NCBI RefSeq assembly: GCF_900129045.1
Contig: NZ_FQTX01000002.1
Location: forward strand, 1-64,000
DNA length: 64,000 bases
Direction of reading: 5' to 3'
Source of the DNA: Bifidobacterium merycicum DSM 6492
GTDB taxonomy: Bacteria > Actinomycetota > Actinomycetes > Actinomycetales > Bifidobacteriaceae
Part shown: positions 1,864 to 17,355 of the stretch, one piece after another
Position numbering within the stretch: position 1 is the stretch's first letter
How the letters are laid out: each line of letters starts with the position of its first letter
The notes under the pieces: generated by a model
Databases searched by the model: none
Seen by the model: the letters and a program-made list of their open reading frames with translations, nothing else
What the model was told of the DNA's origin: nothing
Made by a program: the position numbers and the translations under genes

Positions 1864-3435
1864 ATGGACAGCTGGGCTGAAAGCCGTTGGATATTGACGA
1901 CAGGAGGGACGTTGGGCGACATTCGATCTGAGATGGAGCGTCTTCGTCCGGTGTATGAAACCGGTGTGCTGCGACTGCTGATGCGCAACAATTCGCAACT
2001 GTACGTGGCGCTGCTCCGTTCCTCATTCGAACCGTTGACCGGCGAACTGCCGAGGGAAGTACTCGAAGAGCATTTCACCCGCGCACTGTCCAAACTCGTG
2101 GAAACCGGCGAATACACGCTCAAAGACGATCAGACCCCGGCCGAAGCGGCCCGTCGCATCCTCGTAGAATTGTCGCGTGAAGGCGACGGCGACTATGCTT
2201 GGCTGGCGAACTCGCTCGACGTGGCATCCCACCGTTACCTGTACCGTCTCACCGCCCGCGCCCATCGCGCGATCGAAGCCTTGGCCCGTCTCGAAGACAC
2301 CACGCAAACCCTGTCCGGCGCACAGGCCAACAGCATCATCATGGAAATCGAGCATGCGCGCATGCAGCTCACCGCCGACCCGCATGAACGCATCAAACTG
2401 CTCAACCGCGAGATCGAGGAGCGCCAGAAGGAAATCGAACGGCTCGAACACAGCGAAACCGTCGAACAACTGTCGTCCCAGCAGGTCGAAGACATTATCA
2501 ACGTGGTGCACAACACCCTGCGTGGCGTCCCCATCGACCTGCGCGAGCTCGTGCTCGCCGAACGCGACAACGGCGACGCGCTGCGCCGTCGCATGCAAGC
2601 CGGCGCCATGTCCGTCGAACAGATCCTCACCGCCTACCACGAGGAATACCGCCGATCCTTCACCGAGTCGGACAGTGGCCGGCGTTTCGAAGACGCGTTC
2701 CAGATCATCGTCACCGAGGAAGGCCGTCAGGAAATCGACGAAGCCGTGCGCGACATCGCCCGAAACCCGTATCTTTCCGGCGAACCGGGGCTGCTGCTCA
2801 ACCAGGTCCGTGCCGAACTCGAACGCATCTACGAAGGCATCGAGGACGTGCGCCGTCAGATGCGTGCCTCCGACGAAGCCGTGAGCCGACTGGTCCGCCA
2901 GCAGACCGACACGCGCTACCGCACCATGCTCGCCAAACTCAACCGCCTGTTCGCCAAAACCAGCGCCGAAGCGAAAGCGGTTCCGGGCAACTCCTCCCGG
3001 CCGTACCGTACCGACACGGGCACGGCGCAATTCGCGGTATTGCCCACCAGGCCTGCGAAACCGATGATCCATGCGGCCCCGCCGAGCCTTGACGAGCGGG
3101 AGAACATCCCTTCCGTGGAATCGCCGGATCTGAAAGCCATGATCGAGGTCGGCGGCCCGCGTCTGCGGCACATGATGGCATTGATCCGCCAATCGCCGTG
3201 CACGCTCGACGACGGGCGCGTGGATCTCGCGGCCAGCTTCAACCGTCTGCCCGAACGCGAGCGCCGCGAAAGCGAACTCGTCGGATTCCTCAGCGCCTTG
3301 CATGTGCAGAACGGCTCGCAATACGTGCAATGGAATTGCGTGACCTTGGATGGCAGGCCGCGCGTGTGGCGTACCAAGCCGATTGTGGCGAGCGCCGAAG
3401 CCCTTGACGAGATCGTGGGGGAGGAGCGTGTATGA
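1864..3435 (+). CDS. jetA: Wadjet anti-plasmid protein JetA (DUF3375)
   Basis: This is the kleisin-like (MukF-like) subunit of a Wadjet system, a condensin-type complex known to recognise and cleave circular plasmid DNA. The 523 residues match the DUF3375 family in length and layout. A helical N-terminal part includes [21 protein letters not shown]. The middle is rich in Glu/Arg helices around residues 170-200. A conserved C-terminal winged-helix-like part reads [16 protein letters not shown]. The start is uncertain: ATG 1864 has little upstream signal, while an in-frame TTG at 1912 has AGGAGG four bases upstream. The stop overlaps the jetB start (ATGA), so the two are translationally coupled. 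Identity rests on the four-gene order jetABCD more than on this protein alone. Confidence 0.9.
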
Positions 3436-4610
3436 GTGTCGTATCGGGTACGCGGGCCGCGGGCGCTTATGCCGGTGGGATTACCGGTGGGATTACCGGT
3501 GGGATTGCCGGCGGGGTCAATCGAAACGGCTGGAATATTCGGAACATCGTGATGGAACGGGACGGAGACGGTATGGGACAGGAAACGAGTGATGTGATGG
3601 CTGCTGCGGTTGCCGGCGCTGGGGCCGCCGAGGCCGTTGATGCGACGGGTGCCGCGGCGGATGACTTTGATGCTCCGGCCGAGGCGGTCGCCAATCCGTT
3701 CGCGCTGTTCAACGGCGATACCGGTGATATGACGGCCGAAGCGCGTATGGTCGCGATCGCGCTCAAACGTGACCGGTATATCAGCGATGACATGTATTGG
3801 CTGGTGCATGACGACAGCGCCATCCGTGACGCCGTCATGCGCTCGCTGAACAACGATCTGCTTGAACTCAAGGAGAACCGCAAGTACCGCATCATGTATG
3901 CGGCTCCTGTCAACGGCACGGAGACGGGCATCCGTTCCCTGAAGACGCGTGCGAGCCTGACGCGCGAGGAGGCGGCGATGCTCGCCTTCCTGCGCATCCG
4001 CGTGCTCGAATACGAGAACACGCGCACCGGTGCGGAAGGTTGGATCATCAGCCATGACGAGATTCGCGCGGCGCTCACCACGGGCGCGGGGTATTTGGCG
4101 TCCAGCAATGATGAGGAGACGGCCGCGAAGAAGATCCGTGCCACGATTTCGCGCATGATGACCTACGGGTATCTCGAGCAGGGCGATGCGGACGACATGT
4201 ATCTCATCACGCCGTTGGTGCCGGTGGTGCTGGACGGTGACGTGGCCGATCAGTGGCTGGGCGTGTCGGCGGATGAGGTCGATGATTCGGATGGGGATGG
4301 GGCCGCCGTGACAGGGGAGCCGTCTGATTCCGTGGAAGGCGTGGATGCCGGTGATTTCGGTGATGCCGGCGATGCCAACGGTTCAGGCGATTCTGACGGT
4401 TCCGGCGATGCCAGTGAGCAGGATGCCTTGGATTTCGGTGAACAGGACATGCTGGACTTCGACGAACCCGAACCGCTCGTGAAGATCGCGGAACCCGCCG
4501 CCGAACCGAATGAACCGAATGAACCGAATAAGCCGACCGAGTCGACCGAGCCGGGCGAACCGACCGAAGAGACTGCGACGATCATCGACGAGAACGAGGA
4601 GGATCAGTGA
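3432..4610 (+). CDS. jetB: Wadjet protein JetB (DUF4194)
   Basis: This is the MukE-like (KITE) subunit that bridges kleisin and SMC arms in Wadjet. The DUF4194 core spans about residues 90-245 ([19 protein letters not shown] through [10 protein letters not shown]), including [14 protein letters not shown] and the winged-helix end [12 protein letters not shown]. Two unusual extensions flank it. Residues 14-29 are a Gly-Gly-Ile-Thr repeat encoded by four 12-bp tandem units (3471-3518). The last 120 residues are an acidic, low-complexity tail rich in Asp/Gly/Ser and then Pro-Asn-Glu repeats. The N-terminal repeat may be spurious if translation starts at Met41 or Met48. It overlaps jetA by 4 bases, and its stop overlaps the jetC start. 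Confidence 0.88.
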
Positions 4611-7600
4611 TGACTGACAACGATATGCACATCATCGCCGACCGGTGGATGCTGGAAAGCCGCCAGGTCATCAACTGGGGCTCCTACGAGGGCTACCGCG
4701 AGTTCAAGCCGTCCATGAGCGACAAACTGCCCGTCACCCTGCTCGCGGGCGCCAGCGAATCCGGCAAATCCACGCTGGTCGACGCGCAGATCTCCCTGCT
4801 CTACCCGACCGGCACGCCCTACAATAAAGCCTCCAATTCAGGCCGATCCGAACGCAACGATTACACGTATCTGCGCGGCATGGTCGGCTCCAGCGACGGC
4901 GAAAACGGCGAAACGCCGATCTACCTGCGCGGGCGCGACGCCAATGATGCGCCGCAAGCCGTGTGGGGCGCCATCGTCGACACCTACCTGAACCGCACCA
5001 CCGGAGCCGTGCTCTCCTGCGGCAAATTCCTCTACCTCGCATCCGGCGACGGGCGTGGCGAAGTGCGCAGGCAGTACATCGCCTGGGATCGAAAAATCGA
5101 CCCACGTGCAATGGACCGGTTCCGCGACACGCCCTTCACCGCCACCATGCTGAAGAAAGCGTACCCGGAGTGCGATTCCTTCCTCAACGCGGAAGCCTTC
5201 CACGCGTACATCTGGCGCGAAATGGGCCTGAGCCCCGAAGCGTGCCGTCTCCTGCACAAGATCCAATCCGCCGACGCGCCGTCCAAACTCGACGACATCT
5301 TCAAGCAGGGCGTGCTCGGCGTGCCCGAAGCGCTGGAACTCGCGCGCACCACCATCGACGACTATCTGCGCTACGACGAGAACTTCCGCAGCATGGAGGA
5401 GAAAGCCAAGCGCATCGCCAAACTGCAGGACATCCAGAACCTGTATGGCGAATACGCCGAAGCATTGCAGGCCCGGCGCGAATTCGACGCGGTGAACCCC
5501 GACGACGAACAGGGCGGCGCCGCACTCGAAGCATGGGCAAGGTCCCGCATGGCCGGCGAAGTGCGTGCCGGCCTGCCCGCGGCGCAACGCGAACGCGAGG
5601 AACAGGAACGCGCCTACACCGCGGCATGCCACGACAGTGAAACCATCCAAGCCGAACTCGACGAAGTCAAAGCGAAGATCAGCGGACTCGACGACGGCAC
5701 GCTGCAACGTCTCGAAAGCGAACTCGACCGTGCCCGCCGCGACGCGGAAGAGACCCGCAAGCAGCGCACAAGCGTGCAAAACCGCTTCCGGCAGGCCGGC
5801 GACACCATGCCGACCGACGAGGAACAGTGGTACGCCAAGCGCGAAGCCATCAACAACGCCATCGAATCCTACGACATCGATAAGGCGCAGCGCGAAAACC
5901 AGCGCGACGAAATCTACGACGAGGTGCGCGACTGCCGCAAGGAACGCGAAAGCCTGCAAGCCGACCTGAACCGTCAGCGCAACCAGAAAACCCGCATTAC
6001 CCAAGCCATGGACGAGGCGCGCAACATGCTCGCCGAAGCCGTGGGCCTCGACCCCAAGCACCTGCCGTACGTGGCCGAACTCATGGATGTGCGCGAGGAT
6101 TCCGAAACCTGGCGCGTGGCGATGAACGTCACCTACGCGCCGATCGCGCAAACCATTCTGGTCGACAAGCGCTACGAGCAAGGCTTCGCCAAGAAAGTCA
6201 GCGCCATCGACCCGCGTCTCATGATCCGCCGCACCTGGCAGTTCGTGGACACCGGCACCTCCTACGACACGGCGAGCGAAAAAGGCTGGATGTCCAGCAA
6301 ACTGCGGTTCAAAGCGGGCTCCCCGTTCACCGGATGGCTTAAGGAACAGGTCGCGTCCGAACGTTTCGACGCGAAATGCGTCACCACGATCGACGACGAC
6401 AACCGCGACGAACGCCAAGTGCAGACGGACGGCCAGCTGAAGTCCGGTGCGCACGGCTTCCACGGCATCAAGAACACGCACATGATCATCGGCTTCGTCA
6501 ACGAACGGTACCTGACCGAGTTGCAGCGCAAGCTCGAACAGGCCATCGAAAAGCTGGCCGAGGCGACGATTCGCCACGAGCGGGCGAAACGCCAAGTGGA
6601 CCTGCTGCGCGATCAGAAGGAATTGGCGAACCTCGTCTCCGACATGGAATGGTCCAAGGTCGACGTGGTCGGCGCCGAACGTGCCGTCGAGGATCTCAAA
6701 GCGCGCATCGAGGAAATCCGCAGCAACCCCGAACTCGCCGAACTGACCGCCAAGCGTGAAGGCCTGTACGCCCAGCTCGGCCAGGCCAACAGGGCCAAAG
6801 CCATGGCGGAGCTCGCACGCGACGGCGCGGCGAAAACCGTGCGCGAGGAACGTGAATGGCTCGACTCGTACGGCAGCGGCGAATTCGACGATTCGCTCAT
6901 CCCCGAACACCTGTCCAACCAGCTCGCCGACGTCTACGAGGCCGCGTACGGCGTGTCCTCCAGCGAAAACCGCGCGGCGCTCATCGTGTCCGGCGCGTTC
7001 GGCGGCGGCAACGAAACATATGCGGACCGTATTCTGCGCAGCGTCGGCAACGCGATCCGCAAACGCATCGTCTCGCTCGACGATCAGGCGGGCGTGATGC
7101 GCGCCAACGTCGAGACGCGCATGGCGGATTATCTGGAAACCTACGCGCCCGACGACAATACGGTCATCGCAAGCGTGGAGGAATACCGGTTCTTCGTCGA
7201 AGAGCTTCGGAGCCTCGACATGCTCAGCACGCGCAAAGCCACGGACGAGGAGTACGTGAACAGCCTCGACAAGCTGCGCATGAGCTTCATGCAGATCGCC
7301 CGCGCCGTCGACACCGACGCGAAACGCATCGACGAACAGCTCGACCGCATCAATGCGATGCTCGAAGGCCAGCAGTTCGGCCCGCGCCACGGCAGCCTGT
7401 CAATCGACGTGGACGTGCGCAGGCCGGACCACGAGTTCGTGGGGCTGATGAAGAACACCATCGGCGACCTGACCGACTGGAAGCAGAGCGATCAGAACGA
7501 TCCTGCGGCCACGCGCAAAATGTTCGCCAAGTGCCGTCCGCTCATCGAACGGCTGCAGCAGGAGCTCGGCCAGGTGCGCGACACGAACGGCATCAAGAGC

Positions 7601-8092
7601 TACGGGGCGAAGAACCTCGACCCGCGCTGCCGCTGCTCGTTCTACGCGATCGTCAAGCATGAGGACGGGCCGGACGAGCGCATCACCTCGACCGGTGGGC
7701 GTTCCGGCGGCGCATTGCAGGAGCTGACCTCGTTCATCTACGGTGCGGCGTTGATCTACCTGCTGGGCGGCGACGTGACCGGACAGCCGACCTACACCAC
7801 GCTGTTCCTCGACGAGGCGCTCATCAAGGCCGACGGCCGGTACACGCAGCGTGCGCTGAGCGTGCTGCCGAAGCTCGGCTTCCAGGTGATCGTGTCCGCG
7901 CCGGAAAGCAAAACCGCCGAGATCCTCGAAGTGGCGACCAAGGCGTACGTGGCGTACAAGGACGCGTCGGACGGGCACTCCTATCTGCAGGAGATCACCT
8001 CCGACGAGATCGACCGTCTCGAATCCGAAATCGCCGCCGATATGGATGCCGCGTCCGGTTCGGATGACGCGGGCGATACGAGTGGTGAGTGA
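4607..8092 (+). CDS. jetC: Wadjet SMC-like ATPase JetC
   Basis: This is the MukB-like motor of Wadjet, a 1161-residue SMC-type ATPase thought to extrude DNA loops. The Walker A is GASESGKS (residues 48-55). Long charged coiled coils run roughly 270-470 and 640-760 around a hinge-like segment near 470-600. The ABC-signature-like SGGALQE starts near 1033, and the Walker B reads TLFLDEAL (Asp1069, Glu1070). All ATPase motifs look intact, so the protein should be active. GTG 4607 and ATG 4610 are both possible starts behind GAGGAGG; ATG 4610 overlaps the jetB stop by one base. A 485-bp gap separates it from jetD. Confidence 0.92.
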
Positions 8093-8268
8093 CGCTGCCG
8101 GTGCTGCCAGCGTTGCCAGCGGAAACGAAGCGGCGTGACGCGGGCGGCCTGAGCGGCGTTGACGATGTGACGGCCGATGGTGTCGGCGAGGCTGATGGCA
8201 CGGTTGGAACGGTCGACGCGGCAGACCATGCGTCGGTTGTGCGTCAGTTGTGCGTCGGAAGGCGCTAC

Positions 8269-8456
8269 TTCGCTTATGCATGGCAGATTCAGGCCTTCCA
8301 TGGCGGCTAAGTGGCTTATGTATGGCACCGAAACCGGGATATGGCGAGTACGGGGCTTGGAATCGCAGCGCCCGTACTTGCGGTTTCGCCTATCTGGTGC
8401 CATATATAAGCCACCTAGTAATTTCCAAACCCCCGAATCTGCCATACATAAGCGAA
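8269..8456. repeat. Palindromic repeat, copy A (between jetC and jetD)
   Basis: This 188-bp element is bounded by inverted ends TTCGCTTATGCATGGCAG and CTGCCATACATAAGCGAA. Inside lies a second inverted pair, GTGGCTTATGTATGGCACC and GGTGCCATATATAAGCCAC. It lies in the jetC-jetD gap with no transposase, so it looks like a MITE-type or extragenic palindromic element. Its interior is the reverse complement of copy B at 9890-10076, while the left outer arm and its flank are in direct orientation. A third, more diverged copy lies at 16020-16205. Confidence 0.8.
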
Positions 8457-8577
8457 ATAACTGTTCCATCCGTTTCACAAGTGCCCCGGTGCCGGCACAT
8501 CGCCGATATCCCCGGCGCATCGACACGAGGAACGGCCACAAGTAATCGTGCGAAGAGGCACGGGATCGGAGCGTGAA

Positions 8578-9786
8578 ATGAAGTGGAACATCGGTGACTT
8601 GTCGGGAACCGACGCGCAGGTGAAGACGAACATCGGCAAACAGCTCAGGGCGTTCGTCGAACAGTATCTCGACAAGCAGCGTTTTGCGCTCTTTCAGGTC
8701 TGGCCCTACACGGTACGCGCCCCGCAACCCTCCAAAAGCGAATTCGAAAACGATTCGAACACATACATCACCATCACGAAAGTCTTACGGCAATGGGCGC
8801 AATCGCACGATTGCCAGTATACGGAGGTTTTCCGGCTGCAAGGGGCGAACTGCGGCAAAACAACCCTCGTGAAGGACATTGCCGTGCCGGATGAGCGCAC
8901 GGCATTGCGTATTGCCGGCAGGGAATGCGCGAGCCGCTACCGAATCACGCGGCGGCGGTTGCGCTGCCTGCGGGAGGAGTTCAACGCTTCCGATGAGGCG
9001 GTCGTCAAAGTCATTCGGAAACTCGATGATGCAACAGATCTCGATTTCGATCTGGTGCGTCAGGCGGCGCACTATTTCGCGGAACATGATGCATCGGGCA
9101 TGAGCCCACGCGCAGTGCCGATACCCGGATTCTCCACCAAATGGCTGGGTGGCAAAAGCTCCGAGCGGCGCAAGGCGATCTGCCTGTTGCTGGGGCGTGA
9201 CGCACTTGACTTCAAGGAGCGGCCGGGGGAGATTCGATTGCGTTACCTCGATCCCGCCCACCGCGGATACCCGGATCTGTATGTCACCGAGCCGTGGTCC
9301 AACGCCGATTGCGCAGGATTCGACTATGCGGTGATTGTGGAGAACAAGGACACGTATCAGGAAATGCCGGAGATTGAGAACGGTCTATGCATATTCGGCA
9401 ATGGTAGGGCGGCGAACCGTATCGCGGCGCTGCTGCCGTGGATCGCAGACATACCGCATGTCGTCTACTGGGGTGACATGGATGCGGACGGATTGGAGAT
9501 TCTTTCGGAAGTGCGGGAATCGGGAATCGACTGCGAATCCCTGTTCATGGATGTTGAATCCTGTACGCGGTACGAACGGTTCGGCACCGCGTATACGCCG
9601 AAGGGTGAACGACTGAAACTGCGCAATCCCGCGGAGGTTCCGGGTTTGCGCGAGGATGAGCGGGCGTTGTATGAATCGTTATGTTCCGGGGAGGGAGTGA
9701 ATTATCTGCGCATCGAACAGGAACGCATTCCCATCGTGGACGCCGTCGAGCGGCTACGGGCATTCGGCTTTCCCGTCGCCGGATGA
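8578..9786 (+). CDS. jetD: Wadjet nuclease JetD (DUF3322/DUF2220, Toprim)
   Basis: This is the Toprim nuclease subunit of Wadjet, related to topoisomerase VI A, known to cut the DNA loaded by JetABC. The 402-residue protein has an N-terminal DUF3322-like half and a C-terminal Toprim half. The acidic residues are visible: Glu255 in VIVENKD, and Asp300/Asp302/Asp304 in GDMDADG. I chose ATG 8578 (GGAG upstream); a GTG at 8548 is in frame. In most Wadjet operons jetD directly follows jetC; here it is separated by a repeat and flanked on both sides by copies of that repeat. All catalytic residues appear present. Confidence 0.9.
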   Translation: MKWNIGDLSGTDAQVKTNIGKQLRAFVEQYLDKQRFALFQVWPYTVRAPQPSKSEFENDSNTYITITKVLRQWAQSHDCQYTEVFRLQGANCGKTTLVKDIAVPDERTALRIAGRECASRYRITRRRLRCLREEFNASDEAVVKVIRKLDDATDLDFDLVRQAAHYFAEHDASGMSPRAVPIPGFSTKWLGGKSSERRKAICLLLGRDALDFKERPGEIRLRYLDPAHRGYPDLYVTEPWSNADCAGFDYAVIVENKDTYQEMPEIENGLCIFGNGRAANRIAALLPWIADIPHVVYWGDMDADGLEILSEVRESGIDCESLFMDVESCTRYERFGTAYTPKGERLKLRNPAEVPGLREDERALYESLCSGEGVNYLRIEQERIPIVDAVERLRAFGFPVAG

Positions 9787-9818
9787 TTGCGCGACTACGT
9801 GATGGTGCCCGTGGCGAT

Positions 9819-9830
9819 GGGGGGGGGGGG
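9819..9830. repeat. Homopolymer of twelve G
   Basis: Twelve consecutive G are followed by AGAGAG, 33 bases after the jetD stop. Such a tract is prone to slipped-strand length change. It lies outside jetD, so any effect would be on mRNA or on an unproven downstream frame. It could also be a sequencing artefact. Confidence 0.9.
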
Positions 9831-9889
9831 AGAGAGATGGCTGCGCTTCGGCGTGGACGTATGCCCATTACAGGGCGGAAGGGCGCTAC

Positions 9890-10076
9890 TTCGCTTATGC
9901 ATGGCAGATTTGGTGGTTCGGAAATTACTAGGTGGCTTATATATGGCACCAGATAGGCGAAACCGCGGGTACGGGCGCTGCGATTCCAAACCTCATACTC
10001 GCCATATCCCGGTTTCGGTGCCATACATAAGCCACTTAGCTGCCGAGGAAAGCCCGAATCTGCCATACATAAGCGA
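9890..10076. repeat. Palindromic repeat, copy B (downstream of jetD)
   Basis: This 187-bp copy has ends TTCGCTTATGCATGGCAG and CTGCCATACATAAGCGA. The interior, from GGAAATTACTAGGTGGC onward, is nearly identical to the reverse complement of copy A at 8269-8456, so jetD lies between long inverted sequences. The left flank (GCGCTACTTCGCTTATG) matches copy A in direct orientation. Confidence 0.8.
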
Positions 10077-10251
10077 GATATCCCGTTTCGCTGCCGTTTT
10101 GCCACCGTTCCGCGGCGAACGCGCCGGCGATGGAACGGGCTGAGGTGCCCGGACTGCGTAAAACGGCGTAAAAGGGGAGATGCTGCCGGGGCTGGCGTGG
10201 GCTACGATGGCCAAGGATCGCCGAATCGTGACGAAATCGAAGGAGTAGGGC

Positions 10252-10485
10252 ATGAAATTGGACAAGTACGCGGTGTTCTGCATGTTCGGCATGATGCTGG
10301 CGGTGTGTTCGCTGGTGTTCGGCATCATGGGCAAGGCGATCGTGGCCGGATCGTTCGGACTGGCGACCGGCGGCGTCTGCTTCGGCATGCTGCTGTTGAG
10401 CAAAATGCCTGACGAATCCGCCGTCTCCAACGGCAGCGACACCGATTCCGCAAGCAACGCCGACGCGGATGCGGACGAGCGCTGA
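10252..10485 (+). CDS. Small two-span membrane protein
   Basis: This is a 77-residue protein with a clear ribosome binding site (AAGGAG) eight bases before ATG. Residues 8-28 and 30-50 are two hydrophobic spans (FCMFGMMLAVCSLVFGIMG and IVAGSFGLATGGVCFGMLLL). A short acidic Ser/Asp/Ala-rich tail follows and would lie on one face of the membrane. I do not recognise a family. It lies alone between the Wadjet-associated repeats and rpoZ. Confidence 0.7.
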   Translation: MKLDKYAVFCMFGMMLAVCSLVFGIMGKAIVAGSFGLATGGVCFGMLLLSKMPDESAVSNGSDTDSASNADADADER

Positions 10486-10621
10486 GCCGCTCCGTTCGGT
10501 GCCACGCCATCCATGGGCAACGGAATCACCGGAAGCACCCGGAGCGCATCCCGTCATAGTCTTCGCCCAAGGCTATACTTGGCGCGGTTAAGATAGTTTT
10601 CCATGTTTGGAGATAACGCAT

Positions 10622-10906
10622 ATGGCATTCGGCACTGAGCCCACCCCCACCGGACTGGCGACTCCGTCTATCGACGATTTGATGAAGCACGCCGATTCCA
10701 AGTACGCACTGGCGATTTTCGCTGCGAAGCGCGCACGTCAGATCAACTCCTACTTCACCCAGCTCAACGAAGGACTGCTGCAGAACGTCGGCCCGCTGGT
10801 CGAGTACCAGAGCCAGGACAAGCCGCTGTCTATCGCCTTCCGTGAGATCGACGAAGGCCTGCTGGAGGAAACCCTCGGCGAGGATGATCTGACTGAAGGC
10901 AACTGA
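10622..10906 (+). CDS. rpoZ: RNA polymerase omega subunit
   Basis: Omega helps fold and assemble the beta' subunit of RNA polymerase. The 94-residue product has the conserved omega core: [26 protein letters not shown] and the later [15 protein letters not shown] 10622 is preferred over an upstream ATG because GGAGAT sits eight bases before it and the MAFGTEPTP start is typical of actinobacterial omega. A strong terminator follows. metK is next on the same strand, an order seen in many actinobacteria. Confidence 0.95.
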
Positions 10907-10928
10907 TCGCTTTTTGTAAGAAACGTTA

Positions 10929-10968
10929 GGGTCTGCGCTGGTTCCCATGCCGGCGCAGACCCTTTGCT
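10929..10968 (+). terminator. Terminator after rpoZ
   Basis: A perfect 10-bp stem, GGGTCTGCGC/GCGCAGACCC, is followed by TTTGCT. Confidence 0.75.
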
Positions 10969-11131
10969 ATAGTCGGCATGACGGTATGCCGAAGCCGGTG
11001 TTCCCCCATGTGCTCCGAACATGTTCCCATGAGAATGCTCCGGCCGATTCATGCCCGAAAAAAATAAGAAAACCAAACGTATCATTGTGCCTCGCCCAAG
11101 AGCGGGGCGATAAGTCCGAAAGAGGGATGAT

Positions 11132-12349
11132 ATGACTGAAAAGCGGCTTATTTCCGCCGAATCCGTAACCGAAGGCCACCCCGATAAGGTGTGCGACCAG
11201 ATTTCCGACGCCATTCTCGACGACTTGCTGAGGCAGGATCCGTCGTCCCACGTCGCGGCCGAGGTGAGCGCCGCGACCGGCACGTTCATGGTGTTCGGCG
11301 AGGTGAGCTCCGAAGGCTATGTGGATGTTCAGGCGAAGGTGCGCGAAACGCTGCGCCGCATCGGCTACACCAGCTCCCAGGTCGGCCTTGACGCCGATTC
11401 CTGCGGCGTGCTGGTCGCGCTGGTCGAGCAGAGCTCCGAAATCAACCAGGGGGTGGCGCGTCTGAGCGCCGAACAGGAGTCCGCAGCCAGCCGTGAGGAA
11501 CGCTACGAGGCGCAGGGTGCCGGCGATCAGGGTGTGATGTTCGGTTATGCGACCGACGAAACCGACGTGTACATGCCGCTGCCGATCTACTTGGCGCATC
11601 GTCTCGCCTATCGTCTGGCCCAGGTTCGCCACGAGGGCATCGTCCCGCATCTGCGCCCGGACGGCAAGACCCAGGTCACCATCGAATACGACGACGATGA
11701 CAAGCCGGTGCGCGTGGATACCGTGCTGATTTCCACGCAGCATGACCCCGAGGTCACCCAGGCGTGGCTCGCCGACCAGCTCAAGCAGCATGTGATCGAC
11801 CCGGTGCTCGCCGACGTGTTGGGCGATACGGTTCGTCACGACGATTACCGCGAACTGGTGAATCCGACCGGTTCCTTCGTGCTCGGCGGCCCCGCGGCCG
11901 ATGCCGGTCTGACCGGTCGCAAGATCATCGTCGACACCTATGGTGGCGCGGCCCATCATGGCGGTGGCGCGTTCAGTGGCAAGGATCCGTCCAAGGTGGA
12001 TCGTTCCGCCGCCTACGCGACCCGTTGGGTGGCGAAGAACATCGTGGCAGCCGGCTTGGCGCATCGTGTGGAGGTGCAGGTCGCGTACGCCATCGGCGTG
12101 GCCGACCCGGTGAGCGTGAACGTGGAGACCTTCGGTACCGAGATCGGTGTGACGCGCGATCAGATCGCCGCCGCAGTGCGCACGGTGTTCGATCTGCGCC
12201 CGGCAGCGATCATCGACGAACTCGACCTGAAGCGCCCGATTTACGAGAAGACCGCGGCATACGGCCATTTCGGCCGCATCGACGTCGAATTCCCGTGGGA
12301 GCGCCTCAACAAGATCGATGAGCTCAAGGCCGTCATCGCGCAGGCCTGA
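11132..12349 (+). CDS. metK: S-adenosylmethionine synthetase
   Basis: MetK makes S-adenosylmethionine from methionine and ATP in the cytoplasm. The 405-residue protein is full length. Visible signatures are [14 protein letters not shown] (15-28, ATP site), [16 protein letters not shown] (the conserved hexapeptide region) and [16 protein letters not shown] (phosphate-binding loop). The start is ATG 11132 behind AGAGGGA. A small hairpin (CGCCC/GGGCG) lies in the leader about 40 bases upstream; I could not match it to a SAM riboswitch. Confidence 0.97.
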
Positions 12350-12358
12350 GTGCGGCTC

Positions 12359-12443
12359 CGGCTTGGATGTGAATTCGGCTTGGGACTGAACTCGGTCTGG
12401 GTTTGAGTCCGGCTTGAGAGTGAGTCCGTCTTGGGATTGAATC
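12359..12443. repeat. 17-bp degenerate tandem repeat between metK and priA
   Basis: Five consecutive 17-base units of the form CGGCTTGGGACTGAACT keep exact register from ten bases after the metK stop, and a sixth partial unit follows. The CGGCTTG half is best conserved. No function is evident. Confidence 0.7.
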
Positions 12444-12490
12444 CGCCTTGAGCCCAGCCGCGAACCCAAGCCGACGCATCCGAACGAAAC

Positions 12491-12532
12491 ACGCCGCCAC
12501 GCGACCCTAATCCGGTTGCGCGGCGGCGTTTC
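12491..12532 (+). terminator. Terminator downstream of metK
   Basis: ACGCCGCC plus CGC pairs with GCG plus GGCGGCGT around a CCTAATCC loop region, followed by TTTCC. The GC-rich stem lies 140 bases after metK and before the PriA-like gene. Confidence 0.6.
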
Positions 12533-12591
12533 CATACCCACGCCCGCCCGCATGCCCGCCGCTTCGCAACCAGCGCACTTATAGTGGAACC

Positions 12592-15078
12592 ATGAGTTAC
12601 GAGGATGCGGAGCAGTTGGCGCTCGACGGGTTGGCCCCGCGCAAGCGCCGCTCTCGCGCGTCCAGACACACCAAGGCCAGCGTGGATCCGGTCGTGCGCG
12701 TGGTATTGGATATCCAGGCCGCGCATTTGGGGCAGACCTTCGACTATCTCATCGACGAGAAGGATTCCGAATATGCCTTGCCGGGCGCGATGGTGCGCGT
12801 GCGATTCGGCGGGCAGCGCGTCAATGGCATCATCTGGGAGCGCACGGCCACCAGCGAAGTGCCCGCTGCATCGCTGCGCTACGTGGAACGCGTGTTCGTC
12901 GGGGGAGTGCGCGTATCCGAAGCGTTGCGGCGCGACATCACCGCCATAGCCGAAGCCTACGGCGGCACCCGTGCCAACATCCTGCGCCTCGCGATCCCGC
13001 CCCGCGTGGCGAAAGTCGAACAGGAACAGCGGCTTACGGCCTCGTTCGGCCGCGCCGGCATCACGCCGCCACGGTTGAACGAGGCTGCGGGCCGGGCGTT
13101 CGAAACGATGATCGGTTCGTATGATGCCGGCGTGCGCGACCTGCGTTCGGCTTTGCACGGCAACGCGTTCCGGGCGTTCATCGTCGACCCGCTGCCGGGC
13201 ATCGCCTCGGCCGCGCGGGCATTGGCTTGGATGGCCGTGGAATCGTTGGCCGCAGGGCATGCCGCGGTGACGGTGCTGCCGGACGCGCGTGAAACCGATC
13301 TCATGATGCGTGAACTGGAAGCGTTCGGACTGCGGCGGTTTGCGCGCAACGGTTCGGAAACCGGCGGATGGGCCGGCGACGTCGCCGTCCTCACTGCCGC
13401 ACTGCCCCCAGCCGACCGCTACCGCGCATGGCTCGCCATCGCCACGGGCAGCGTGAAATGCGTGATCGGCACCCGCGCCGCCATGTACGCGCCGGTGGAA
13501 GGGCCGGCATTGTTCGCGATCATGGACGACGCCGCCTACCAGCAGGCCGACGGCATGGTCCCCTACGCCCAAGGGCGCGGCGTGATGCGCCTGCGTGCGC
13601 GACTGCACGGTGGCACGTTCGTGGCGCTCGCCAACGCGCGCAGTCCGCTGAGCCAATGGGAGCTGGAATGCGGTGGAGCTGGCAGAATAGGCGGAACCGG
13701 CTGGAATGCCGGTGGACGCGGCATCGACGTGAACAGCGCGGTGAGCGGCCCCAGCGTGGCGATCCGCCCGCTGCCCAGCGTGCTCAAAGACGCCACCCCC
13801 TGGGTGCGATGGCTGAACCGCGACGAGCTCGCACGTCTCGCCGACCCGTCGATCGGCGCACGCGTGCCGCACACCGCGGTCAACAACATCCGTCAGGCGC
13901 TGCGCTCCGGGCCGGTATTGTTCTCCATTCCCGCCGACGGCGTGGCTGAGGCGCTGAGCTGCGCGAACCCGAAATGCCTGCGTCAGGCCAGATGCGCACG
14001 GTGCACAGGCCCGTTGCAGCGGGTGCATACCACCGGCGCAGGTGCAGGCAGTGGTGCCGACGCGCCGCGATGCCGCTGGTGCGGTTTCGCCGCCGTGAAT
14101 TGGCGATGCCGGTACTGCCATTGCGATCGCCTGCGCGTGGTGCATGTCGGCGCGGCCGGTACCGCCGACGAGCTGCGCGGCCTGTTCCGTGGCGTGCCGG
14201 TCCTGCTGTCCAGCCCGAGCCAGCCGAACGGTCCGATTGAGGTCATCGATAACAGGCCCGTCATCGTGATCGCGACTCCGGGCGCCGAACCGCGCATCCG
14301 CGTATCCGGAGGCGACACGAACGGCGTGAATGGCATGAAGGGCATGAAGGGCGTGAATGATGCAAATGGCGCGAATGGCGGCAGGAACGCCAACACGCCG
14401 TACGGCTCATACGCGTCCGTCGCCATCCTCGACGCATGGAACAGCCTGTACAAGCCGGGCCTCGACGCGCGTGTGGATACGCTCGCCTCATGGATGCGGG
14501 TGGCATCGCTGTGCGCACCGCGTACGCGCGGAGGACAGGTGCTGCTGCTCGGCGAAACATATCCGGCCATCGCCCAGTCGCTGATGCTCTGGGATTCCTC
14601 CATCCTCGCCAAGCAGGAGTTGGCGGAACGTCTCGGCACGGGCATGCCGCCCGCGGCGGCGGTCGCTTGCGTGTGGGGGCGTGCCGAATCGGTGCGTGTC
14701 GCCTTGGAGCGTATCGGCGTGATCGGCGGCGACATGGCGGTATGCCCGGCTCCACGCGCCGCACAAGCGGGTTTCGCCCAAGGGGAGATGATCGCCGCAA
14801 CCGGTGGGGGAACGCCGTCCGGTCGCGGCGATGACGGCATGGTGAACTTCGACATGGAATGGCCGGGACTGCTTGGCCCGGTGCCGATTGCCCAGCCGCG
14901 CACGTTGAACGCGCGCGAGCTGGAAGCGACCGCCGATCGTGTCAAGGCCGTGGTGCGCGTGCCGTACGCGCGACGCGAGGAGCTGGCGAAACGGTTGAAA
15001 CACGAGGTCGCACGCCATGTCGCCTCACGCGAGTTCGGCGAACTGCGATTCCAACTCGACCCGAAGGATCTCATCTGA
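12592..15078 (+). CDS. priA: PriA-like primosomal protein N' (helicase motifs not visible)
   Basis: PriA loads the replisome at repaired forks. The N-terminal DNA-binding domain is clear (VVLDIQAAHLGQTFDYLIDE, residues about 38-57), as is a zinc-binding region with paired cysteines near 455-505 (CANPKCLRQARCARCTG and CRWCGFAAVNWRCRYC). Where PriA normally has a GSGKT Walker A, this protein reads DPLPGIASAARALAWM, and I see no DExH motif. This fits the actinobacterial subgroup annotated as a probable primosomal protein. Residues about 575-600 are a low-complexity Asn-Gly-Met-Lys repeat, a likely flexible insertion. Length is 828 residues. Confidence 0.88.
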   Translation: MSYEDAEQLALDGLAPRKRRSRASRHTKASVDPVVRVVLDIQAAHLGQTFDYLIDEKDSEYALPGAMVRVRFGGQRVNGIIWERTATSEVPAASLRYVERVFVGGVRVSEALRRDITAIAEAYGGTRANILRLAIPPRVAKVEQEQRLTASFGRAGITPPRLNEAAGRAFETMIGSYDAGVRDLRSALHGNAFRAFIVDPLPGIASAARALAWMAVESLAAGHAAVTVLPDARETDLMMRELEAFGLRRFARNGSETGGWAGDVAVLTAALPPADRYRAWLAIATGSVKCVIGTRAAMYAPVEGPALFAIMDDAAYQQADGMVPYAQGRGVMRLRARLHGGTFVALANARSPLSQWELECGGAGRIGGTGWNAGGRGIDVNSAVSGPSVAIRPLPSVLKDATPWVRWLNRDELARLADPSIGARVPHTAVNNIRQALRSGPVLFSIPADGVAEALSCANPKCLRQARCARCTGPLQRVHTTGAGAGSGADAPRCRWCGFAAVNWRCRYCHCDRLRVVHVGAAGTADELRGLFRGVPVLLSSPSQPNGPIEVIDNRPVIVIATPGAEPRIRVSGGDTNGVNGMKGMKGVNDANGANGGRNANTPYGSYASVAILDAWNSLYKPGLDARVDTLASWMRVASLCAPRTRGGQVLLLGETYPAIAQSLMLWDSSILAKQELAERLGTGMPPAAAVACVWGRAESVRVALERIGVIGGDMAVCPAPRAAQAGFAQGEMIAATGGGTPSGRGDDGMVNFDMEWPGLLGPVPIAQPRTLNARELEATADRVKAVVRVPYARREELAKRLKHEVARHVASREFGELRFQLDPKDLI

Positions 15079-15211
15079 TGTTCCCGCCGCCGCATGTGAT
15101 ACGCGCCACAGCCGCGTCACGGCGCGTCATGCGGCATAATGAATGCGGAAAACGGACGGTGGCCAGCGGTACGTCCGGCCGGAAACGACAATGCGAGGCA
15201 AGGAGCGGACG

Positions 15212-15916
15212 ATGAAGGGTTGGCCCGGAGAACCGGACATGGAATACGACGTGCTCATGGCACAGGGCGAAGCCGCCGTGAACGCGGGCAAGCCGATCAC
15301 CGACGTGATCTTCGACTTCGGCAACGTGCTGCTGTACTGGGAACCTTCCGCGGTGCTCATCCCACGGTACAGTGCGGAAACCATCGAACAGTTCCTCGAC
15401 AACGACATCTCCGGCTTCTACGACGCCAACGACCGCATGGATGCCGGCGCCACGCCCGAGGAGGGCATCGCGTGGATGCGCGAGACCCACGGCGACGAGT
15501 GGGCCGATATTCTCACGTATTACCTTGAGAACTTCGAGGATTCCCTCACCGGCGTGGTGCCGGGCGCCCGCGTGCTCATCAACGATCTCAAGGCGGCGGG
15601 CATCGGCGTGTGGGGCCTGTCGAACTGGGAGAAGGAGCTGTACCCGATCGCCGAACGTACCACGCCGATCCTGCGCCAGCTGGACGGCAAAGTGGTGTCC
15701 GGGTATGTGAGGCTGCGCAAGCCCGACCGCGCGATCTATGAGAAGGCGTTGGAAGAGTTCGGCATCGGTGCCGAAGGCGCGGTGTTCGTGGACGACAAGG
15801 CGATGAACATCGTCGGCGCGAACAACGCGGGTATTCGCGGCATCCGGTTCCGCGATCCGGTGAAGCTGCGTGAGCTGCTGATCGCCAACGGTGTGGCCAT
15901 CCCTGACGTTCAGTGA
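15212..15916 (+). CDS. HAD-family phosphatase (YihX-like)
   Basis: A 234-residue HAD hydrolase of the IA type, probably acting on a sugar phosphate. Motif I is FDFGNVLL, in which the usual second Asp is Gly, as in the YihX-type branch. Motif II is GLSNW, motif III is the Lys in RKPDRAIYEKAL, and motif IV is VFVDDKAMN. ATG 15212 is chosen because AAGGAG lies eight bases upstream; a longer frame from 15143 lacks this. The exact substrate cannot be read from the sequence. Confidence 0.8.
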   Translation: MKGWPGEPDMEYDVLMAQGEAAVNAGKPITDVIFDFGNVLLYWEPSAVLIPRYSAETIEQFLDNDISGFYDANDRMDAGATPEEGIAWMRETHGDEWADILTYYLENFEDSLTGVVPGARVLINDLKAAGIGVWGLSNWEKELYPIAERTTPILRQLDGKVVSGYVRLRKPDRAIYEKALEEFGIGAEGAVFVDDKAMNIVGANNAGIRGIRFRDPVKLRELLIANGVAIPDVQ

Positions 15917-16019
15917 GTTTTTCAGTGAGTTTTCCGGGGCGGCTTTTACGGCTTCCAGTCGCAATGCCGACCGTTAAGCCGCCAACAACTGCCCGGGCGC
16001 ACGGGTCCGCTGCGCCATC

Positions 16020-16205
16020 TTGCTTATATATGGCGGATTCCGGGGTCCCGATTGCGCTAGGTGGCTTATATATGGCACCCAAAACGAGATATCCCAAGTA
16101 TGGACGGTGGAATACCAAGGATGCTACTTGCGATTTCGCCGTTTACGTGCCATATATAAGCCACTTGGCTGTTTGAAGGCCACGGAATCCGCCATATATA
16201 AGCGA
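16020..16205. repeat. Palindromic repeat, copy C (upstream of fmt)
   Basis: This third family member has ends TTGCTTATATATGGCGGAT and ATCCGCCATATATAAGCGA and the inner pair GTGGCTTATATATGGCAC/GTGCCATATATAAGCCAC. Its interior has diverged from copies A and B. It fills the 470-bp gap between the HAD phosphatase and fmt, where I see no gene. Confidence 0.8.
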
Positions 16206-16386
16206 GATGATAAGCGAGACGGCACAACGCCCAGCGGAGAAGGGTCGATGCCGGGCCAATATACTCGTGCTTGGAGCGTAAACCGACGCGTCGCGTCGAA
16301 GGACCGCGCAAGGTAGGAACCTATAAGCGACAGTCGCGTGGCGGGAAATCCGCGGACACATGCGACAGCGGAACAAGGAGAATAAC

Positions 16387-17355
16387 ATGACGTTGAGATT
16401 GCTGTTTGCAGGCACACCCGAAGTGGCAGTGCCGTCGTTGCGTGCCTTCGCGGCCGATCCCCGGTTCGAGGTGGTTGGTGTACTCACCCGCCCGGATGCG
16501 CCGGTGGGGCGTGGACGCAAGCTCGCGCCGAGCCCGGTCAAGGCCGCGGCGACGGAACTCGGCATCCCCGTATTCACCGACAAGCCGCGCGATCCGGAGT
16601 TCCTTAACACTCTTGCCGAGCTCAACGCCGACATCGCCGCCGTCATCGCCTACGGTAACATCCTGCCCAAGGCCGTGCTCGATGCGGTGCCGCTGGGCTG
16701 GTACAACCTGCATTTCTCCAATCTGCCGAAATGGCGCGGCGCGGCTCCGGCGCAGCGTGCCATCTGGGCGGGCGACGCCACCACGGGCGCCGACGTGTTC
16801 AAAGTGGGTGAGGGGCTCGACGACGGTCCGGTGATCGCCTCCATGACCGTCGAACTGACCGGCCGCGAAACCTCCGGCGAACTGTTGGAACGACTGGCGG
16901 ACGAGGGTGCGCCGATGTACGTGGACGCGCTGGCCCAAGTGGGCGACGGCACCGCGACATTCACGCCGCAAGCCCACGAGCAGGCCGAATACGCGCACAA
17001 GATCAGCGTGGAGGACGCGCATATCGTGGTCGGCGACACGGTCGAAGCCATCGATCGTCAGATCCGTGCGTGCACGCCGAATCCGGGAGCTTGGGCCGAA
17101 CTGCACGCCACGGGTGACGCAGGGGAGTCGATCACCCTGCATGTGTTGGGCGCCATCCCGGCGAATATGGAACGTCCGAACGTGCCGGCCGATTTGAAGC
17201 CGGGCGAGTTGCGGGCTGGCAAGAAGAACGTGTGGATGGGCACCGGCAGCACGCCGTTGGAACTGCTGGAAGTCAAGGCGCAGGGCAAGAAGGCCATGCG
17301 TGCCGCGGATTGGGCGCGTGGCGCCCGCCTCGCCGAAACCGCGTATCTCGACTGA
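16387..17355 (+). CDS. fmt: Methionyl-tRNA formyltransferase
   Basis: Fmt formylates initiator Met-tRNA with 10-formyltetrahydrofolate. The 322-residue protein begins [17 protein letters not shown]. Its catalytic region is [20 protein letters not shown], where family members have the Asn-x-His and Leu-Pro-x-(W/Y)-RG-(A/C)-P motifs. ATG 16387 has AAGGAG eight bases upstream; an earlier frame start at 16360 is unlikely. It partners with the deformylase encoded at 53.6 kb. Confidence 0.97.

Follow-up and report, generated by a model that had tools for sequence, protein, structure and literature searches.

The question raised by this locus is whether two near-identical repeats, lying on either side of the nuclease gene of a predicted plasmid-defence operon in Bifidobacterium merycicum (G000), can flip or remove that gene and so serve as its on/off switch, as a first-pass annotation had proposed. 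The window, that is the whole stretch of DNA analysed (64,000 nucleotides at the start of contig NZ_FQTX01000002.1), contains adjacent matches to the Wadjet type I models for JetA, JetB, JetC and JetD in the order A-B-C-D (PADLOC), and from its sequence the operon is predicted to be a Wadjet type I plasmid-defence system composed of:

1864..3435, + strand: jetA, kleisin-like (PADLOC JetA1, E 6.6e-269)
3432..4610, + strand: jetB, MukE-like (PADLOC JetB1, E 1.6e-95)
4607..8092, + strand: jetC, MukB-like SMC with Walker A GASESGKS (PADLOC JetC1, E 0; motif scan)
8578..9786, + strand: jetD, Toprim-type nuclease subunit (PADLOC JetD1, E 4.9e-167; Pfam JetD_C, E 7.9e-43, and DUF3322; ORF list)

The gap of 485 bp that had been reported from the jetC stop at 8092 to the jetD ATG at 8578 is correct, an in-frame GTG at 8548 being a possible alternative start, and it is the third largest among the 34 genus genomes carrying both genes on one contig (measured by homology ends, the range is 27-739 and the B. 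merycicum value 491). A sigma-70 scan found no promoter for jetD in either orientation. A run of 12 G at 9819-9830, a possible slippage tract in non-coding DNA, lies between the jetD stop and the second repeat, and a SAM-VI riboswitch is found at 11078-11136 ahead of metK (Rfam, 76.2 bits, gathering 57.5). The repeats themselves, together with a third copy in the window, are:

8266..8461, + strand: element copy A, motifs at 8274-8285 (+), 8316-8327 (+), 8398-8409 (-) and 8440-8451 (-)
9887..10080, - strand: element copy B, inverted relative to A, motifs at 9895-9906 (+), 9937-9948 (+), 10019-10030 (-) and 10061-10072 (-)
16022..16208, no strand assigned: third element copy, motifs at 16024 and 16066 (+), 16148 and 16190 (-)

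Near-identical repeats with inverted interiors do stand on either side of jetD, as first described. Copy A is 92% identical to inverted B and 71% identical to B read directly (genome BLAST); in a repeat search the inverted arms 8256-8459 and 9887-10090 (204 nt) are 89% complementary, and without inversion the match is limited to the outer arms, 29/29 nt on the left and 27/28 nt on the right. Each copy is a near-palindrome whose outer arms are identical read either way, hence the inversion is visible in the asymmetric interior only, and the most fitting description of copy B is a sister copy of A in inverted orientation. With one mismatch allowed, the motif TTATNTATGGCA has 13 matches in the window versus 0.18 expected and is therefore not there by chance; eight of these lie in A and B, four in the third copy and one is a stray.

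The element is not a private jetD switch; it is a dispersed Bifidobacterium element, forming an intergenic family of 20 copies in the 2.27-Mb B. merycicum genome (15 contigs). Its layout is four 12-bp motifs at offsets 0, 42, 124 (reverse complement) and 166 (reverse complement), with length changes in none of the 20 copies. Scanned for half-sites (two 12-bp motifs at a distance of 42 bp, no more than 3 mismatches), the genome gave 19 forward and 20 reverse matches, and a reversed-pattern control gave 0. All 19 forward half-sites have a reverse half-site at exactly 124 bp, while for the lone reverse half-site a degenerate counterpart with 9 mismatches lies at that offset, making this the 20th element; the 39 half-sites thus all lie within full elements, one of them with a degenerate half, and B. 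merycicum has no orphan half-sites. Repeats occurring elsewhere at similar density had been named as evidence against a switch, and this is partly the case given the 20 copies genome-wide, yet three of them fall within 8 kb here. On ORF inspection 19/20 elements are free of filtered ORFs. Only copy B is overlapped, by a minus-strand ORF of 181 codons that is probably spurious, since it extends across a small plus-strand frame (from 10252) that relatives conserve. No match to the element was found in a plasmid collection. Arrays of 4-9 copies of another, shorter palindrome (a family of about 41 bp, TCAGACA...TGTCTGA) stand around some elements of B. merycicum and B. pongonis (L119:4396-5252, L123:7533-8304, L137:2645-3430, L143 and L152), none of them in the window.

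ERIC, BIME, RUP and Correia are bacterial intergenic palindromic repeats that are dispersed, non-coding, dyad-symmetric and 100-200 bp long. Our element resembles them in size and in being dispersed, non-coding, intergenic and dyad-symmetric, but judged by their descriptions it is set apart by its four motifs, invariant spacing and randomised spacers, and by the absence of an Rfam match. Recombinase-trio (RIT) and mosaic integrase cassettes with inverted ends are reported from Bifidobacterium; unlike those ends, the B. merycicum half-sites belong to full 178-bp elements, and we rejected the idea that they terminate a recombinase-trio element since orphan half-sites do not occur. In the open-licence literature we found no description of a palindromic or MITE-like Bifidobacterium repeat of such a kind.

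What is conserved in the element may indicate its function. Across the 20 B. merycicum copies, mean pairwise identity is 0.75-0.79 in the outer motifs, 0.86-0.87 in the inner motifs, 0.57-0.58 in the next block and 0.65 in the centre, and the spacers (0.40-0.42) are nearly as variable as the flanks (0.36-0.38). A constant length combined with unconstrained sequence suggests that spacing along the helix is what matters, 42 bp equalling four turns. Covariation was assessed by comparing the arms of one element with arms of different elements (2000 permutations; 20 B. merycicum and 26 B. pongonis copies). The observed value was reached in B. merycicum by 522 permutations for the outer motif, 1996 for the spacer and 1835 for the flank, with a weak within-element excess for the inner motif (48), stem (88) and centre (106); in B. 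pongonis the outer motif, spacer, inner motif and centre gave 1836-1999, with a weak excess for the stem (46) and flank (167). Left-right covariation thus shows no consistent within-element excess over arms from different elements. Since the motifs are kept, the spacers diverged, the lengths fixed and the covariation inconsistent, a protein-binding array fits better than a selected hairpin, and we regard the element as a putative protein-binding array.

In a first sample of 39 relatives the element was matched in B. merycicum itself only; a genus scan that scored up to 7 candidates per genome then placed it in at least 9 of 112 Bifidobacterium genomes, B. merycicum included, and a pattern scan of GTDB species genomes returned 40 stretches, of which 30 belong to Bifidobacterium and 10 to other bacteria. 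The sister species B. pongonis 64T4 (G086) has 26 elements aligned at the 124-bp offset, 24 with at most 5 mismatches per half and two with one degenerate half (9 and 11 mismatches), as well as two more with shortened centres (offsets 80 and 89). Half-site matches number 10 in B. erythrocebi DSM 109960 (G061), 2 in G044 and 6 in G094. B. kashiwanohense JCM 15439 (G053) and Bifidobacterium sp. N4G05 (G068) share the 42-bp unit and dyad layout around a different centre, at offsets 114-125; one B. kashiwanohense copy (L197:2289-2508) carries an extra unit, giving three 42-bp units on one side, and N4G05 (L220) has two at apparently the same site.

The elements are mostly old sites, because 16/20 B. 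merycicum copies have a B. pongonis counterpart at the same place (flank alignments at 15 loci, the check covering the fetched, element-bearing B. pongonis stretches). In one orthologous pair the centre is 44 bp shorter in B. pongonis, and spacer identity is 0.62 in 14 orthologous pairs versus 0.43 in non-orthologous pairs. One near-complete empty site was seen (L135 against B. merycicum L177), in an alignment too diverged either to reveal or to exclude a target duplication. The B. pongonis assembly is a draft with an 8% contamination estimate and one mirrored contig: the two ends of C1 (236440 bases) are mirror images for 22 kb or more, which is probably an artefact of assembly, and for this reason an apparent doubled element pair on C1 was rejected and taken as one locus.

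The suggestion that recombination could flip or remove jetD stands, at the species level, for removal, which has a natural example in B. pongonis. There jetA (513 aa), jetB (421 aa) and jetC (1173 aa) are all open and are followed by one element and then by the same downstream genes through metK, and a search of 112 genus genomes gave no JetD match for this species at E <= 1e-20. On its left this single element is flanked by sequence like that to the outer left of A, and on its right by sequence like that to the outer right of B: in alignments over 30, 60, 120 and 180 bp, each comparing the single element with the left or right element of the bracket, the left flank scores z 3.8-4.4 against A-left versus 0.4-1.3 against B-left, and the right flank z 3.0-11.0 against B-right versus 0.7-3.2 against A-right. 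The core is equally like A and inverted B (138/178 each). B. erythrocebi and G044 carry jetABC-jetD at this locus and have neither A nor B there, and jetD is ancestral because these outgroups keep it there. G044 has a diverged partial element, read by eye, just downstream of jetD and another before jetA; among the jet loci examined, the two-element arrangement around jetD occurs in B. merycicum only. A transfer of jetD into B. merycicum was considered and rejected, as JetD is fast-evolving throughout and the identities fit vertical descent (72% for JetD versus 91% for JetC between G061 and G044; 62% versus 85% between B. merycicum and G061). Between B. merycicum and B. pongonis dN/dS is 0.12 for JetC, 0.07 for JetA and 0.32 for JetB, against 0.09-0.15, 0.08-0.11 and 0.25-0.28 in other comparisons among these species, and does not date the loss of jetD.

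A difference of one element versus element-module-element was found at three loci: at jetD, at two-component genes (bracketed in B. pongonis L054, single element in B. merycicum L141; the response regulator has Pfam support and the putative kinase is without a Pfam match) and at a sortase pilus operon of about 8 kb (bracketed in B. pongonis L122, single element in B. merycicum L148). With left paired to left and right to right, the two-component left flank scores z 7.5-12.6 versus 0.6-2.4 and the right flank z 1.5-5.2 versus 0.5-3.3, the wrong element scoring higher at 30 bp; the pilus left flank scores z 5.0-10.3 versus 0.1-2.3 and the right flank z 0.1-11.3 versus -0.2 to 1.3, again with the wrong element ahead at 30 bp, where both are low. 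The single-element cores are nearest to the right element at both loci (two-component: 147, against 135 for the left and 145 for the left inverted; pilus: 149 versus 128). Only for jetD is the direction of change clear. Of the outgroups, G061 has the pilus and G044 lacks it; at the two-component locus G044 carries an element and G061 a remnant. In B. erythrocebi (G061:C6:46129-49465) a response-regulator match lies beyond the neighbouring gene, on the opposite side compared with B. pongonis. A fourth candidate for inter-element deletion (L132, 5.8 kb) was not counted, as only its right junction in B. merycicum is near an element.

Copies A and B are the most alike of all 190 B. merycicum element pairs (91.6%, inverted). 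The bracket of a copper-ATPase ranks second of 190 (87.1%, inverted), and the B. pongonis two-component bracket second of 325 (87.1%, inverted), surpassed by a pair that lies on two contigs in similar surroundings. Three further brackets are unremarkable (ranks 18/190, 50/325 and 62/325), and two wider neighbouring pairs rank 98/190 and 146/325. For the closest inverted brackets, but not as a general rule, this points to gene conversion.

Loss of jetD is not confined to B. pongonis. JetC was found in 60/112 genus genomes and JetD in 35/112 (E <= 1e-20), all 35 among the 60, leaving 25/60 JetC-bearing genomes without a JetD match. About 5 kb after jetC was read in 20 of the 24 others (11 tblastn queries, E <= 1e-3); JetD was not found there in 19/20, and in none of the 20 was an element found after jetC, the jetC end itself not being picked up in G067. 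G088 keeps a 95-residue JetD remnant after jetC. Matches to jetD with one in-frame stop each, at G053:C1:1196124-1197266, G055:C2:411071-412204 and G007:C12:322437-323501, are further signs of its decay. A gene of about 1000 aa after jetC was rejected as a jetD replacement in species lacking JetD, the one scanned in Pfam being UvrA-like. Thus jetD loss is common in the genus and mostly occurs without elements, the element route being indicated for B. pongonis only.

Taken together, we consider it rather probable that recombination between bracketing element pairs converts the copies and removes the intervening gene, as it likely did with jetD in B. pongonis. The element is a dispersed 196-bp mirror-symmetric Bifidobacterium repeat with four near-identical motifs at fixed spacing; in this model a protein would bind these motifs, and the deletion would arise by RecA-dependent recombination or by slippage between the near-identical outer arms. 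These routes are invoked because a full-length pair in inverted orientation would by itself yield an inversion and no deletion; the inverted state of A and B stands against a deletion, as ordinary crossing-over would flip jetD unless the outer arms paired or the ancestral orientation was another one. Also against it are the three brackets that are not unusually alike, the two-component and pilus right flanks, which at 30 bp score better with the wrong element, the L132 module, which in B. merycicum has an element near its right junction only, the other species that have no JetD beside jetC and no elements, and the draft state, 8% contamination estimate and mirrored contig of the B. pongonis assembly. 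It is unlikely that the association is a coincidence, with elements sitting at gene borders, jetD lost by an unrelated deletion and the single element being one original copy. The many JetD-less genomes without an element, and the L132 module, which differs without two elements in B. merycicum, would agree with this, but the single element keeps both outer flanks at three loci, which places the junctions at the element.

An invertible switch, in which A-B recombination would flip jetD within a population and turn the nuclease on or off, is distinctly unlikely. Inversion stays plausible because A and B are the most similar of the 190 pairs and inverted, and the 485-bp gap sets jetD apart from jetABC. 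Nevertheless, jetD is adjacent to and co-directional with jetC in 34/34 genomes having both on one contig (G043 has them on different contigs), so that the opposite orientation, sought across relatives, occurs in 0/34 species-level genomes and the flip is unproven; the copper-ATPase bracket is collinear in B. merycicum and B. pongonis, none of the six Phage_integrase (tyrosine recombinase) matches of the genome lies in the window and its single Resolvase match is on another contig, and a flipped jetD would lose any read-through from jetC with no promoter predicted either way. The proposed on/off role therefore goes beyond the evidence, inversion being unobserved in the species-level comparison. 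It is quite improbable that the copies flanking jetD are insertions of a MITE moved by a transposase located elsewhere: the element is short, non-coding and dispersed with inverted ends, and its copy number varies between relatives, yet most copies have a same-place counterpart in B. pongonis, the spacers are randomised with lengths fixed, unlike neutral decay, and B. merycicum has no unpaired end marking an autonomous element. Least of all do we expect the element to act as a structured RNA or hairpin and thereby uncouple the expression of jetD from that of jetABC. Copy A, which sits between the co-directional jetC and jetD, has a predicted RNA fold of -106.8 kcal/mol (z -10.7); against this, arms of the same element pair no better, consistently, than arms of different elements, the gene contexts of the 20 elements are mixed (7 ++, 5 --, 5 convergent, 2 divergent, 1 open), and an Rfam scan of 7500-17000 found no family at the element. 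Perhaps, as a bolder and rather doubtful extension of the recombination model, the element is the dyad site of a Bifidobacterium nucleoprotein or recombinase complex at which bracketed modules (jetD, two-component, sortase pilus, copper pump) are reshuffled, its mirror symmetry letting sites pair in either direction and so giving rise to both inversion and deletion. If this is true, a single step would strip a defence system of its nuclease and leave a disarmed SMC complex.

Compared with known systems, the B. merycicum operon has the four subunits of Wadjet type I / MksBEFG (JetABCD) in the order A-B-C-D, but its jetD stands behind a 485-bp gap and is element-bracketed, and the B. pongonis locus is JetABC only. 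PMC10123090 presents MksG as the executing nuclease. In lacking JetD, the B. pongonis JetABC resembles MksBEF without a nuclease, as portrayed in PMC10586767; unlike in MksBEF, the nuclease has been lost in one lineage, where an element marks the junction, and a chromosome role is putative. JetABC without JetD would be an MksBEF-like SMC complex unable to cut plasmids, and JetABC may have a nuclease-free role in Bifidobacterium. The B. pongonis locus offers a natural case, with an element-marked junction, of a Wadjet operon losing its nuclease and keeping its SMC core, which is the step proposed to turn JetABCD into the chromosome-organising MksBEF. Moreover, the putative binding partner of this four-site Bifidobacterium DNA element could be fished out directly, and element brackets point to gene modules that differ between sister species.
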